Part shown: piece by piece, positions 52,919 through 58,163 of the stretch
How the letters are laid out: each line of letters begins with the position of its first letter
Position numbering within the stretch: the stretch's first letter is position 1
DNA from: Fontisphaera persica
GTDB lineage: Bacteria; Verrucomicrobiota; Verrucomicrobiia; Limisphaerales; Fontisphaeraceae
Direction: 5' to 3'
Assembly: GCF_024832785.1 (NCBI RefSeq)
Contig: NZ_CP116615.1
Coordinates: 4,154,001-4,218,000, forward strand
DNA: 64,000 nt
Made by a program: the position numbers and the translations under genes
The notes under the pieces: generated by a model
What the model was told of the DNA's origin: nothing
Seen by the model: the letters and a program-made list of their open reading frames with translations, nothing else
Databases searched by the model: none

Positions 52919-55900
52919 TTATTCCTGACGTTGGGTCGGTTTTTCCCGCGGTTTGCCGGCGCGGTGGATGCGGAGGGTGAAGCCGCGGCCATTTTCAAAG
53001 GGTTCGACGGTGGCGGTGACTTCCAGCACAGGGTAGCGGACGGTGGCCAGGCCGTAGCTGCGGTAGGTGGAGGCAAAGAGTTCGGTTTCCACCATGCCCG
53101 TCCAGTCCGCCAGGGTCAGGAATTTCATCGGTTCGCCGGTGATTTGATGGAAGAGCCGTTGCTCGATGACGAGGCCGCAGGTGACGACTTGCTGTCCCAC
53201 AAACTCCCCCAGGCGCGCCACCGGGCAATAAGTCTCCCAGGCCACCTGGTCAAAGAGTTCGAGCGGATGGCCGCTGACGGGGTAGCCCAACAGTTCGGCC
53301 TCCCATTCCAGGCGCTGGCGGCGGGTGGGTTCCTGAAGGGGGGCGTCGCTCAGGCGCTCCGCTCCGGGCGGGGGGAGGAGCCAGCCCTGGCCGCCGCCTG
53401 CCTCCGCGTGGCCAAAGGCGCGCCGCAGGAGCTGCGCCTCCCAAAACAGGCGGGTGCGGCTCAGGCCGAATTCATCCAGGGCGCCGGCGCGGATGAGCAA
53501 TTCCATTTCCTCCGGCGCGGGGCCAACGCGGGCGTAAAAATCGCGCAGGGAGGTGAAGGCGCCCTGTTGGCGCGCGGCCAGGAGCCGGTCGCGGGTGGCC
53601 TGGGTCAGGCCTTTAATTTGTGTTATGGGCACACGAATGGCGCGAGGGGGAGCGGTGGAAACGCCGGAAGCCGGCCGCGGGCGCACCACCTGGAAAGCCG
53701 GCCCGGGCTCATTGAGGGTGGGCGGCAGGAGGGGGAGGCCCAGGCGGTGGCATTCGAGCACATAGACGAGGGGGTCGTAAAAGCCCTTGCCGTGGGTGAG
53801 CACGGCCGCCATGAACTCCGCCGGGTAATACCGCTTGAGCCACGCGGCGACGTACGCCTCCACCGCGTAAGCCGTCGAATGCGCCTTGCAAAAGGCGTAT
53901 CCGGCAAAACCGGTGACCAGGTCCCACACCTCGCGGATGACGGCTTCGGGGCGCCCGCGGGCGCGGGCGGCGGCGAAGAATTCGCGGCCAATTTCCTGGA
54001 TGGTCTCCAACTTTTCCTTGCCCAGGGCACGGCGGAGCTGGTCGGCGCGGCCGGGGGGCAGGCCGGCAAAGGCCTCGCAGATTTGCAGAACGTGCTCCTC
54101 ATACACCACCAGGCCGAAGGTGCTCCGGAGGCACGGCTCCAGCGAGGGATGGGGATAGCTGGCCGGTTCCAACCCCTGGTAACGGCGGCAGAACTTTTGT
54201 TTTTTTTGTTCGTTGGCCGCGCCGGGGCGGATGACGCTGACCACGGCCACCAGGCCGTCTATTTCGCGGATGTGGCTCTGCCGGCAGAGGCCCACCATGG
54301 CGGGTGACTCGATGTGATGCACGGCGCGGGCCTGGCCGCTGGCAATGAGGTCCCACACGGCGGGGTCATCCCAGGGGGCAAGGTCCGGCATCCCACCATC
54401 CAGCGGCGCCAACCCCTTTGTTTCCTCCGCTGGTGGAGGGGGGAGGGGGCCTTTTTGCGGCTCCTCTTTTCTGCGGATTTCCGCCAGCGCATCGCGCATC
54501 ACCGCCAGGCCGCCTTGGGCCAGGATGTCGAGTTTCACCAGGCCGAGGGCCTCGACGGCGTCCATGTCGTAGTGCGTGGCGGGCCAGCCCTTGTGGGTGC
54601 GGAAGGTGGGAGTGAGTTCGTGGATGGGCTGGCGCGAGAGCACCACGCCGCAGGGGTGCATCTTGGGATAACGCGGGAAGCCATCCAGAAATTCCGCCAT
54701 TTCCAGGGCCGAGCGGTAGGGTTCTTCCTCCAGCGGCAAATCGCGGCAGTCGGGGCTTTCGCGCAGCAGTTGGACGAGGCCGCGGGCGCGGCTCCAGGGG
54801 AAATGCTCGGTGAAGCGCCGCACTTGATGCTCGGAAAGGCCGAGCGCCTTGCCGACATCGGCCACGGCGCCGCGGGCCTGGTAGGTGGAGAAGCCGCCCA
54901 CCACCGCGCAATGCTCCGGGCCGTATTTCTCGAAGAGCAGGGCGATGACGTCATCCTTGCGGTCATGGGGAAAGTCCACGTCAATGTCCGGCAGTTTGTG
55001 CATGGCCATGCGCTCGCGGTTGAGGAAACGGCGGAAGTAGAGGTCGAAGCGCAGCGGGCACACGTTGCTGATGCCCAGACAATAGCAGACCAGGGAATCG
55101 GCGGCGCTGCCGCGGGTGAGCCAGTCCATGCCGCGGCGGCGGCATTCGCGCAGCAAATCCCACACCACCAGAAAGTAGTCCTCGTAGCCCACCTCGCCGA
55201 TGATGGCCAGCTCCTCCTCGAGTTGGGGCCGCACCTGCGTCCAGCGGTCAGGATAACGGCGGCGCGCGCCCTCCAGCACCAGCCGCCGCAAAAAGGCGCG
55301 CGAGGGGGAGCCGTCCGGGGCCTGAAACACCGGGAATTGCGGCGGGCCAAAGGGAAACCGGAAGCCCCGGCAGCGCTCGGCAATTTCGGCATTGCCGGCC
55401 AGCACGCGGGGTGGCAGGCGGAATTGCTGGCGCAGCTCGGCGGGCGCGCGCCAGTGCAACTCGCCGGGCAGTTTGGCGGGGTGCTCCTGCCGCAGGAGGG
55501 TGAGGGTGCGGATGGCCTCCAACACTTCAAATTTCCAGCGGTCTGGCGGCGTGGCGTAATGCACCGGCTGTCCCCAGGCGAGGGGTAAATGCGCGGGGAA
55601 ACGGGCGGCTTCTTCCGGCGCGCAGACCAGGCCGTAGAAACGACCGGGAAACCATGCCGCCAGGCGCGCCTCTGCGCCGAGGGCCAGCAGGCCGTCCGTG
55701 CCTTCCTCCAACTGCCGCAGCGACAACTGGCCGGGCGGCAGGCTGAGCCAGCGGCAGAGACGGGCATAGCCCCGGGCGTTTTCCACGAATAACACCAGGG
55801 GGCGGCCGTCGAGGAGGACTTCCGTGCCCACCAGCGGTTGCAAGCCGGCGGCCTGGGCTTGCTGCACAAACTCCGGCGCGCCGTGCAAATGACCCAAATC

Positions 55901-57298
55901 GGCCAGCCCGATGGCGGGCAATTCATGCTGTTGCGCCAGGCGGACGATGTCGGCAATGGCCAGGGTGGAAGCAAGGAACGAATAATAACTGCGCACGCGC
56001 AGCGGGATGACGGGGACGCTGGCCGGCCGCCGCGCGGCCGCAGGCTCGCGCCATCTCTTGCCCTGGCCCTCACGCGTTGGAGGGGGGAGGGGGAGGTTCC
56101 TGGAGTTATCGGGTGAAATATCCGTTTGCGTTTTGCGTTCCTCCAGCAGCAGGTCATGGCCGCGCATGACCACCTTGCAGCCGAACTTTTCGCGCAAGGC
56201 ATCCACGGCGGCGGCCAGGCGGCGGCGCGCCTCGGATTGGCCGTCTGCCGGCAGCAGTTCCAGCTCGCCGGTGATGCGCCCGTCATAGAGGTGGCTCAAC
56301 CGCAGCGAGACCATGCGGAGGCTCACCCGGCGGCGCCAGGCGCGTTTGAGGAGCAGGCGGAGGCGTCCATACACCTCGGTTTCCACGCACACCGGCTCGG
56401 GCAGGCTTTCGCTGCATTGGTCTTCGGCCATGTCGTTGTAACGCACTTTGACCGTGAGGGTGCGAGCCGCCTGGCCGGCCGCGCGCAATTTGGCGAAGAG
56501 TTCATCCGCCATGCGGCGCAGGACCGCCTGGGCGTATTCCTCGTCGGTGAGGTCCTGCGCAAAGGTCTCTTGTTGCCCGAAAGATTTGGCGGGGGCACGG
56601 CTGGGCACGACGGGTCGGTCATCGAGACCGCGGGCAAAGCGGTGGAGCGTGCCGGCGCCGCTGCCCACCAGCACTTCCAGCAATTCCGGGGGAGTGGCGG
56701 CGATTTGGCCCACCCGCGCCAGGCCGGCGGCGTTCAGCCGCTCGCCGAGCTTGGGGCCTACGCCCGGCAGCCAGCGGTTGGGCAGCGGACACAAAAACTC
56801 GGCTTCCCGGCCGGGCGGGACTTCCAGCAGGGCGGCGGGTTTGTTCAACTTGGAGGCCACCTGGCTGACGAGCTTGTTGGCGGCCACGCCTTCGCTGACG
56901 GAGATTTTGAGCGATTGGCGGATGGCCTCCCGCAGGCGGTGGGCCACCTCGAAAGGGGGGCGGCGCGCGCCGGTGACGTCGAGGTATCCTTCGTCAATCG
57001 AGGCCACCTCCACGTCCGGGGTGAAGTCGTAGGCGTAGGAAAACATCCATTGGGAAAATCGCTCGTATTTCTCGAAGTCGCCCGGCAGGAGAATCAAGGC
57101 GGGGCACAACCGCCGGGCCAGGGCGGCGGGCATGGGGGTGTAGATGCCGAAGCGCCGGGCCTCATAGGAGGCGGAGGCGATGATGCCGCGCTTTTCGCCG
57201 CCCACAGCCACCGGGCGCCCGCGCAGGCGGGGGTCCGCCGCCTGCTCCACCGAGGCAAAGAAGGCATCTGCGTCGAGGTGAATGATTTTGGCGGGCAT
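52919..57298 (-). CDS. DinB (Y-family) - DnaE2-like (C-family) DNA polymerase fusion
   Basis: 1459 residues from ATG 57298 (a TTG precedes it). Residues 1-390 are a full DinB-type polymerase: IIHLDADAFFASVEQ (Asp9, steric-gate Phe14), ASIDEGYLDVTG (Asp102-Glu103), helix-hairpin-helix LPGVGPKLGERLNAAGL and little finger KSFGQQETFAQDLTDEEYAQ. After a linker of about 40 residues, 430-1459 form a DnaE2-like polymerase: a short PHP domain with lost metal ligands (LRVRSYYSF, LADLGHLHG), LTRGSAADSLVCYCLGISNV, palm aspartates in KLPDIDVDFPHDRKDD (771, 773) and LVKLDILAQGG (924), GYAFCKAHSTAYAVEAYVAA, and a C-terminal OB fold (about 1365-1450). A role in SOS translesion synthesis is likely, since lexA lies 54 bp upstream on the same strand. 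No clear clamp-binding motif was found. Confidence 0.9.
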   Translation of the reverse strand: MPAKIIHLDADAFFASVEQAADPRLRGRPVAVGGEKRGIIASASYEARRFGIYTPMPAALARRLCPALILLPGDFEKYERFSQWMFSYAYDFTPDVEVASIDEGYLDVTGARRPPFEVAHRLREAIRQSLKISVSEGVAANKLVSQVASKLNKPAALLEVPPGREAEFLCPLPNRWLPGVGPKLGERLNAAGLARVGQIAATPPELLEVLVGSGAGTLHRFARGLDDRPVVPSRAPAKSFGQQETFAQDLTDEEYAQAVLRRMADELFAKLRAAGQAARTLTVKVRYNDMAEDQCSESLPEPVCVETEVYGRLRLLLKRAWRRRVSLRMVSLRLSHLYDGRITGELELLPADGQSEARRRLAAAVDALREKFGCKVVMRGHDLLLEERKTQTDISPDNSRNLPLPPPTREGQGKRWREPAAARRPASVPVIPLRVRSYYSFLASTLAIADIVRLAQQHELPAIGLADLGHLHGAPEFVQQAQAAGLQPLVGTEVLLDGRPLVLFVENARGYARLCRWLSLPPGQLSLRQLEEGTDGLLALGAEARLAAWFPGRFYGLVCAPEEAARFPAHLPLAWGQPVHYATPPDRWKFEVLEAIRTLTLLRQEHPAKLPGELHWRAPAELRQQFRLPPRVLAGNAEIAERCRGFRFPFGPPQFPVFQAPDGSPSRAFLRRLVLEGARRRYPDRWTQVRPQLEEELAIIGEVGYEDYFLVVWDLLRECRRRGMDWLTRGSAADSLVCYCLGISNVCPLRFDLYFRRFLNRERMAMHKLPDIDVDFPHDRKDDVIALLFEKYGPEHCAVVGGFSTYQARGAVADVGKALGLSEHQVRRFTEHFPWSRARGLVQLLRESPDCRDLPLEEEPYRSALEMAEFLDGFPRYPKMHPCGVVLSRQPIHELTPTFRTHKGWPATHYDMDAVEALGLVKLDILAQGGLAVMRDALAEIRRKEEPQKGPLPPPPAEETKGLAPLDGGMPDLAPWDDPAVWDLIASGQARAVHHIESPAMVGLCRQSHIREIDGLVAVVSVIRPGAANEQKKQKFCRRYQGLEPASYPHPSLEPCLRSTFGLVVYEEHVLQICEAFAGLPPGRADQLRRALGKEKLETIQEIGREFFAAARARGRPEAVIREVWDLVTGFAGYAFCKAHSTAYAVEAYVAAWLKRYYPAEFMAAVLTHGKGFYDPLVYVLECHRLGLPLLPPTLNEPGPAFQVVRPRPASGVSTAPPRAIRVPITQIKGLTQATRDRLLAARQQGAFTSLRDFYARVGPAPEEMELLIRAGALDEFGLSRTRLFWEAQLLRRAFGHAEAGGGQGWLLPPPGAERLSDAPLQEPTRRQRLEWEAELLGYPVSGHPLELFDQVAWETYCPVARLGEFVGQQVVTCGLVIEQRLFHQITGEPMKFLTLADWTGMVETELFASTYRSYGLATVRYPVLEVTATVEPFENGRGFTLRIHRAGKPREKPTQRQE
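54423..54451 (-). repeat. Repeat C fragment inside the DnaE2-like part
   Basis: Shares GGAGGGGGGAGGGGG with the linker copy at 56055. It encodes the proline-rich GPLPPPPAEETKG (about residue 950), an insertion between the third palm aspartate and the following conserved segment, where DnaE2 proteins normally have only a short loop. Confidence 0.55.
56055..56098 (-). repeat. Repeat C copy encoding the polymerase linker
   Basis: Plus strand CTCTTGCCCTGGCCCTCACG then CGTTGGAGGGGGGAGGGGGA. It matches intergenic copies at 42121 (CCCTGACCCTC...GGGGGGAGAGGGA) and 9687. In the gene's frame it reads NLPLPPPTREGQGKRW; the intergenic copy at 9687 read in one minus-strand frame gives the similar FPLPKGEGQGKGRE. 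Confidence 0.7.
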
Positions 57299-57352: not shown

Positions 57353-57976
57353 TTATCCTGCTTTGCCGCGCACCAGTCCCACCATCACCCCCTGGATGAC
57401 CAGCTCGGCGGCGGGGATGAGTTTGGGGTATTGGGGATTTTCGGCCTTCAAATAGGGGCGCCCGCGCTCCACCACGTACGTTTTGAGGGTGCTTTCGTTG
57501 TCAATCAGCGCCGCGACGACATCGCCGGGTCGGGGGGGCCGGCCGTGCTCCAGAATCACAATGTCGCCGTCAATGATGTGCCGCCCAATCATGGAGTCGC
57601 CCCGCACCCGCAGGGCAAACGTGCGCGCGGTGGGTTGAATGCCCAGTGTCCGCACGTCCACCGACACGCATCCTTCGGCCTCCTGCTGCCGGTCGTCGGC
57701 AAAACCGGCGGGGATGCTCCCAAAGAGCGGGATGTCCACCACCGCCTGCCGGAGGCGCGCCAGGGGCGAGGCCAGCCGCCAGGAGCGCGCCTTGCCCGGC
57801 ACATGGGCCAGCCAGCCTTTGCGCTCCAGGGCCGCCACGTGACAGGCGGCGGCGCGCGGGCTGCGGAAGCCGAAATGCGCGGCGATTTCGCGCAGGGTGG
57901 GCATGGGTTCGCCCGCCTGCTGCCGGGCTTGGAGGAGGGCGAGGACCCGTGCTTGTTGGTCGGTCAAGCGTTTCAT
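57353..57976 (-). CDS. lexA: SOS repressor LexA
   Basis: 207 residues. The N-terminal winged helix (about 1-65; LTDQQARVLALLQARQQAGE, TLREIAAHFGFRSPRAAACH) binds DNA, and the C-terminal S24 peptidase-like domain is complete: cleavage site in FGSIPAGF (Ala90-Gly91), catalytic Ser128 in VRGDSMIG and Lys165 in ESTLKTYVV. It should therefore be a RecA-coprotease-responsive SOS repressor. The polymerase fusion follows 54 bp downstream, making a two-gene damage-response operon. A 20-bp palindrome ends three bases before the start codon, consistent with autorepression. No other lexA is in the window, so it could be a cassette-specific paralogue or the only one. Confidence 0.94.
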   Translation of the reverse strand: MKRLTDQQARVLALLQARQQAGEPMPTLREIAAHFGFRSPRAAACHVAALERKGWLAHVPGKARSWRLASPLARLRQAVVDIPLFGSIPAGFADDRQQEAEGCVSVDVRTLGIQPTARTFALRVRGDSMIGRHIIDGDIVILEHGRPPRPGDVVAALIDNESTLKTYVVERGRPYLKAENPQYPKLIPAAELVIQGVMVGLVRGKAG

Positions 57977-57979
57977 AGT

Positions 57980-57999
57980 TACTATACAAATGTATAGTA
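57980..57999. promoter_or_regulatory. Candidate LexA operator (20-bp palindrome)
   Basis: TACTATACAAATGTATAGTA: 9-bp perfect arms around AA, three bases upstream of the lexA ATG (minus strand). It overlaps a possible -10 (TATACA, 57991-57996) with TTGAAT at 58012-58017 as -35 (15-bp spacer, weak). No Shine-Dalgarno fits between operator and ATG, so the transcript may be nearly leaderless. The motif differs from the Escherichia CTGTN8ACAG and Bacillus CGAAC-N4-GTTCG boxes. Confidence 0.7.
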
Positions 58000-58163
58000 T
58001 TCAGGAAAAAAATTCAAGCGTCCTCCTGCCCGGGCCACGGGGGGGTGGATTGCCCTTGTGGCCAGGGACTTGGGGGGACTTCGGCCCGGGGTCCGGGGCC
58101 TCTGGCTGGTTTCCTGCGCCTTTCTGCTTGCGCGGGTCTGGCTGGCTTTCTAACAATCACTCA

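Follow-up and report, generated by a model that had tools for sequence, protein, structure and literature searches.

The 20-bp palindrome TACTATACAAATGTATAGTA, located at positions 57980 to 57999 of the window (the whole stretch of 64,000 nucleotides analysed here), is very probably, on comparative grounds, a LexA operator of divergent specificity. In the complete model that we favour, to which we give a probability of about 0.87, it would be the autoregulatory operator of the only LexA of this genome, matched to the recognition helix of that repressor, blocking a lexA-(dinB-dnaE) unit and coevolved with the protein that reads it. Across the order to which the organism belongs, about 20 forms of this operator can be distinguished, which look largely readable from the DNA-contacting helix of the cognate repressor.

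The palindrome is composed of two perfect arms of 9 bp each around a non-symmetric centre of 2 bp, and can be read as two half-sites (T)ACTATAC separated by an N4 spacer. On the lexA strand, the box and the start of the gene read TACTATACATTTGTATAGTA-act-ATG, which leaves 3 nt between the palindrome and the ATG at 57976, where no Shine-Dalgarno motif fits. The 18-bp core ACTATAC-AAAT-GTATAGT (57981 to 57998) is found identical and at the same place before lexA in a second genome of the genus (G043), and is the positional homologue of about 115 lexA operators. When up to 3 mismatches are allowed, ACTATACN4GTATAGT matches the window once (0.11 expected), and the 20-mer occurs as a single copy in the 4.73-Mb genome.

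The gene that follows the box is lexA (57353 to 57976, minus strand), which encodes a protein of 207 amino acids with a LexA DNA-binding domain and an S24 peptidase, both scoring above the curated cut-offs of Pfam and NCBIfam, the equivalog TIGR00498 among them. In alignments, its ATG corresponds to Met1 of the E. coli protein and to the starts of the relatives, and the start codon is therefore sound. Alignment by eye with the E. coli protein also points to a predicted self-cleavage site (A-G, in IPAG) and to a Ser/Lys dyad (GDSM, TLK). Residues 39-46 of the recognition helix (SPRAAACH, with the same residue numbers as in E. coli, so that the helix starts as Ser39-Pro40-Arg41-Ala42-Ala43) are encoded at 57839 to 57862 of the minus strand. 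A single LexA DNA-binding domain and a single S24 peptidase were found in the whole genome.

Regarding the promoter, a possible -35 element TTGAAT lies on the minus strand at 58012 to 58017, with TTGATT at the same offset in the second genome of the genus, and a possible -10 element TACATT, which is no strong match to the consensus, would follow 17 nt away, inside the operator (57989 to 57994, minus strand). Such a TTGAAT-N17-TACATT arrangement would make transcription begin some 6 nt upstream of the ATG. A strict sigma-70 scan returned no promoter at the box, and a consensus sigma-70 promoter was rejected for the window on this basis. In the relatives, a TTGAC mostly precedes the box by 17, 15, 13 or 12 nt, at a distance that is fixed for each box type; a -10 element that sits within the operator, with a best register that changes along with the operator sequence, would produce this pattern. 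The -10 region is probably contained in the operator, which would make the mRNA nearly leaderless.

Most of what an earlier, sequence-only reading of this DNA had proposed agrees with these data. The palindrome and its coordinates three bases from the lexA ATG were exact, a second copy was rightly said to be absent from the window, no room exists for a ribosome-binding site between box and ATG, and the claimed overlap with the promoter and the start region is very likely. The proposal of a LexA box is itself very probably correct, given the conserved position and the covariation with the recognition helix of LexA described below. The description of the palindrome as unusual holds in part, since its core, TATAC-N4-GTATA, differs from the classic motifs, but the order has about 20 related palindromes, this one included.

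Those relatives were examined in about 130 distinct lexA genes with upstream DNA, mostly from the same order (Limisphaerales), where relatives of the window LexA were found in 136 of 320 genomes; the protein search gave no such relative in the other 184, some of them nearly complete. The named relatives belong mostly to Verrucomicrobiota, including Limisphaera and Pedosphaera, and already among the first nine, most lexA genes showed a palindrome in the same position with a different sequence. Under a strict definition (6 or 7 of the 7 arm positions paired, not more than 20 nt from the start), 98 of the 130 genes carry a palindrome, against 4.4 on average (maximum 10) in shuffled upstream DNA, which together with the identical 18-mer in the second genome of the genus argues that the palindrome of the window is not due to chance. 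Slightly looser rules called 115 boxes, 57 of which abut the start codon exactly, with most others within 5 nt of it, and a Shine-Dalgarno-like motif was seen in the last 20 nt for only 4 of the 130 genes. Most boxes share the frame ACTxxxC-N4-GxxxAGT. Perfectly symmetric half-sites come in 20 kinds, among them the ACTATAC of the window, the Verrucomicrobia motif ACTGTTC, an E. coli-like ACTGTAT, ACTATCC, ACTACTC, ACTGCTC and ACTGTCC, as well as a few with other outer bases (for example GGTGAAC). The window lexA thus has, like genes with an SOS box, a dyad-symmetric site in its probable promoter. One of the boxes, ACTGTTC-GTGT-GAACAGT of L032 (G037:C135), is embedded in a far longer palindrome (CAGATGGTCAT...ATGACCATCTG) that reaches the start codon. 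Operator diversity seems to be concentrated in this order: when 40 LexAs of other orders of the class were sampled, a small number, an SQT helix was dominant (about half) and palindromes at the start codon were few, with some families outside the order having boxes that abut the ATG and fit the same rules, such as SSF helices with AGTGCTC.

The main evidence that these sites belong to LexA comes from the way in which their variable bases follow the recognition helix. In the half-site, base 4 covaries with helix residue 41 (z 30), base 6 with residue 40 (z 31), base 3 with residue 42 (z 29) and base 7 with residue 43, all within an overall z range of 20-31 obtained with shuffles that ignore ancestry. 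Of 37 boxes whose LexA has arginine or lysine at position 41, 35 have A at base 4 in both arms; when another residue stands there (Asn, Thr, Tyr, His, Ser, Gly), base 4 is G in 77 of 78. On a tree built exclusively from the part of the protein that follows the helix, 18 changes of Arg/Lys41 and 19 of A4 were counted, and both changed together in all 6 of the independent pairs whose branches are well supported. Prediction with each GTDB-type family left out of the training gave base 4 in 99% of the cases (baseline 68%), base 6 in 80% (41%) and base 7 in 85% (74%), and the whole half-site exactly in 59 of 110; the helix of the window, with its own family left out, returned exactly ACTATAC, although the predictor positions had been chosen on all data, the two sequences of the window's genus included, which is a small leak. 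Two other genomes (L050 and L073) with Pro40-Arg41 and a different following helix have no clear box, which counts against the favoured model. In E. coli LexA, Ser39, Asn41, Ala42, Glu44 and Glu45 contact the DNA (PMC3091678), Asn41 reaching the operator through a water molecule (PMC5999292), so the covariation falls at positions where contacts are expected. The specificity of the site thus appears tied to the helix of its cognate LexA.

Downstream of lexA, 54 nt past its stop codon and on the same strand, a presumed second gene of the operon (52919 to 57298, minus strand) encodes in a single open frame an unusual fusion of a DinB (Y-family) and a DnaE (C-family) polymerase, 1459 amino acids long when counted from its ATG. 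Of 80 homologous loci for which 4.5 kb or more of downstream DNA was available, 58 have a fusion of this kind after lexA; the remaining loci show lexA followed by a lone DinB-like gene, by an ImuA-like gene (as judged by eye) or by unrelated genes. Both polymerase sites look active, since the motifs S-x-DEGY-x-D (54 of 57 fused frames examined) and PDIDxDF (57 of 57) are conserved. Open frames of 1655-1760 amino acids suggested tripartite LexA-polymerase fusions, which were discarded as a stop codon separates the genes. No DinB-DnaE fusion is mentioned in the polymerase surveys searched, which include the main-text passages on fusions of a census published in 2026 for bacterial polymerases (PMC12926913). 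In the window, lexA and the fused polymerase would be co-transcribed.

How the operators became so different is a separate matter. Repeated duplication of lexA, or its transfer between lineages as an insulated lexA-polymerase cassette, rather than drift of a single resident LexA, may have been the main route of diversification, an account of origin that is compatible with the function proposed here and that we consider a serious option, if somewhat short of even odds. The patchy distribution of these LexAs in the order would fit it, as would the ten genomes with at least two boxed lexA genes, whose boxes are mostly clearly different within each pair (the alike or close ones being those of G109, G145, G261 and one pair of G264), and a published model in which divergence of LexA motifs is linked to duplication (PMC8565304). 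On the other hand, most genomes with a match have a single lexA, the window and the second genome of its genus have inherited the same helix and box from a common ancestor, and a relative of the same family (G044) has another helix and box pair. Seven genomes (G264, G125, G110, G275, G070, G212 and G027) hold at least two lexA genes with different operators and are candidates for mutually insulated LexA circuits.

A LexA operator would usually be expected to recur before other repair genes, and the sequence-only reading did anticipate copies in front of recA, uvrA and splB. The search for them was negative, and the lexA site is the only good one in the genome. With up to 3 mismatches, ACTATACN4GTATAGT is rarer than its reversed control both in the genome of the window (11 matches versus 54) and in the other genome of the genus (6 versus 40), with lexA as the only place common to both, and a wider regulon was consequently rejected for the window genome. 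No such palindrome precedes recA, and across 20 genomes of differing box types the match of each own box to the recA upstream region was no better than in shuffles (22 box tests, none with p <0.05). Exact TGTTCN4GAACA sites number 2 in the window genome, equal to the control, neither of them at lexA. The absence of repair-gene copies, which that same reading named, together with a lack of LexA binding, as a refutation, does not overturn the LexA box, because the helix covariation extends over about 115 genes and the repair gene under control would be the adjoining DinB-DnaE fusion. It is unlikely, but worth weighing, that a conventional SOS regulon persists here under LexA, with sites too degenerate for the scans to pick up: LexA sites elsewhere can be degenerate, the scan covered up to 3 of 14 mismatches, and a weak wider regulon made of sites beyond that limit is possible. 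Moreover, a few additional targets may have been retained in some genomes of the GTTC type, as in G245, with 10 exact TGTTCN4GAACA sites against 0 in the reversed control, and in G132, where a second perfect site (L187, G132:C245:2708-2723) lies some 300 bp upstream of a radical-SAM gene resembling SplB/PA0069 by eye. ATCC-type genomes gave little beyond lexA, and exact-site counts were small as well for SQT-helix LexAs elsewhere in the class. A one-site regulon, presumably made up of lexA and the next gene, is well supported for the genus of the window, to which we confine the claim.

That another regulator, or an RNA or promoter feature, owns the palindrome with LexA uninvolved is highly improbable: start-codon palindromes can serve other repressors, but the variable bases track LexA residues 40-43 across the order, several variants are known LexA motifs (such as ACTGTATN4ATACAGT with E. 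coli-like SPN helices), and an RNA hairpin is unlikely if transcription starts within the palindrome. A second LexA or S24 repressor as the true owner of the site was also considered and rejected, since none was found in the genome.

Under the model of a helix-matched autoregulatory operator, a LexA dimer with a divergent helix would bind the two ACTATAC half-sites, 4 bp apart, in an operator that would span the -10 and transcription-start region and that ends 3-4 nt from the ATG. Bound LexA would block initiation of the nearly leaderless lexA-(dinB-dnaE) mRNA until DNA damage led to RecA-stimulated self-cleavage of the repressor, lifting the block, after which the fused translesion polymerase would be made together with new LexA. 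The operator would have co-evolved with the helix, and hence would not be conserved across the order, a process that is plausibly easy because the repressor appears to keep essentially one operator.

The LexA motif of Verrucomicrobia, in work by Erill and colleagues in 2016, is said to be TGTTC-N4-GAACA. The site of the window shares with it the protein family and the 5-N4-5 geometry, but has the core given above instead, and a helix that reads SPR versus SMN, SMT or SQT. Several relatives in the order do carry that motif (ACTGTTC-N4-GAACAGT), one of them in tandem: before the lexA of Limisphaera (L013/L055, G099) two TGTTC-N4-GAACA boxes adjoin, their junction forms a further palindrome (TATGAACAGTTGTTCATA), and the arrangement resembles tandem sites reported for other Verrucomicrobia. 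In Verrucomicrobium spinosum, recA is reported as bound by LexA, whereas the genome of the window lacks a recA box. With the SOS box of E. coli, CTGT-N8-ACAG (TACTGTATATATATACAGTA), the site shares the 20-bp TACT...AGTA frame and the outer bases, and some relatives with SPN or SLN helices carry ACTGTAT-N4-ATACAGT; the window differs by A for G at base 4 and C for T at base 7, which match its Arg41 and the AAAC continuation of its helix. As for the operon, the LexA1/LexA2 system of Geobacter sulfurreducens, as outlined in the passages of PMC6511836 that cite Jara et al. 2003, likewise has lexA together with a Y-family polymerase (lexA-imuB-C-polY), with polymerases that are unfused there and fused in the window. 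Similarly, in lexA-imuA-imuB-dnaE2 cassettes lexA heads an operon that combines Y-family with DnaE2-type polymerase functions, but these are separate genes with a catalytically inactive ImuB (PMC6511836), whereas the window has no adjoining imuA and encodes a single polypeptide in which the active-site motifs of both polymerases are conserved.

A LexA operator as such is known biology; what looks new is the extent and the predictability of the drift, and in the window an autoregulatory operator that would be of a new sequence type, a view whose support is comparative. It is an old question how a repressor can change along with its DNA site while the circuit keeps working, and the divergence of LexA motifs between phyla is a textbook puzzle; this order supplies about 115 natural repressor-operator pairs, with about 20 half-site types and predictions at the level of single residues. 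We see even chances that, in this order, LexA gave up recA and often became a one-operator repressor of lexA and a dual-polymerase cassette; released from a larger regulon, it would have drifted with its site into those half-site types under a largely additive code, in which residues 42, 41 and 40 specify bases 3, 4 and 6, respectively, and would have formed mutually insulated modules, sometimes two in a genome. The order may thus be a source of candidate mutually independent LexA repressors, and the data point to an SOS system that, in the genus of the window, has shrunk to lexA and one translesion polymerase.
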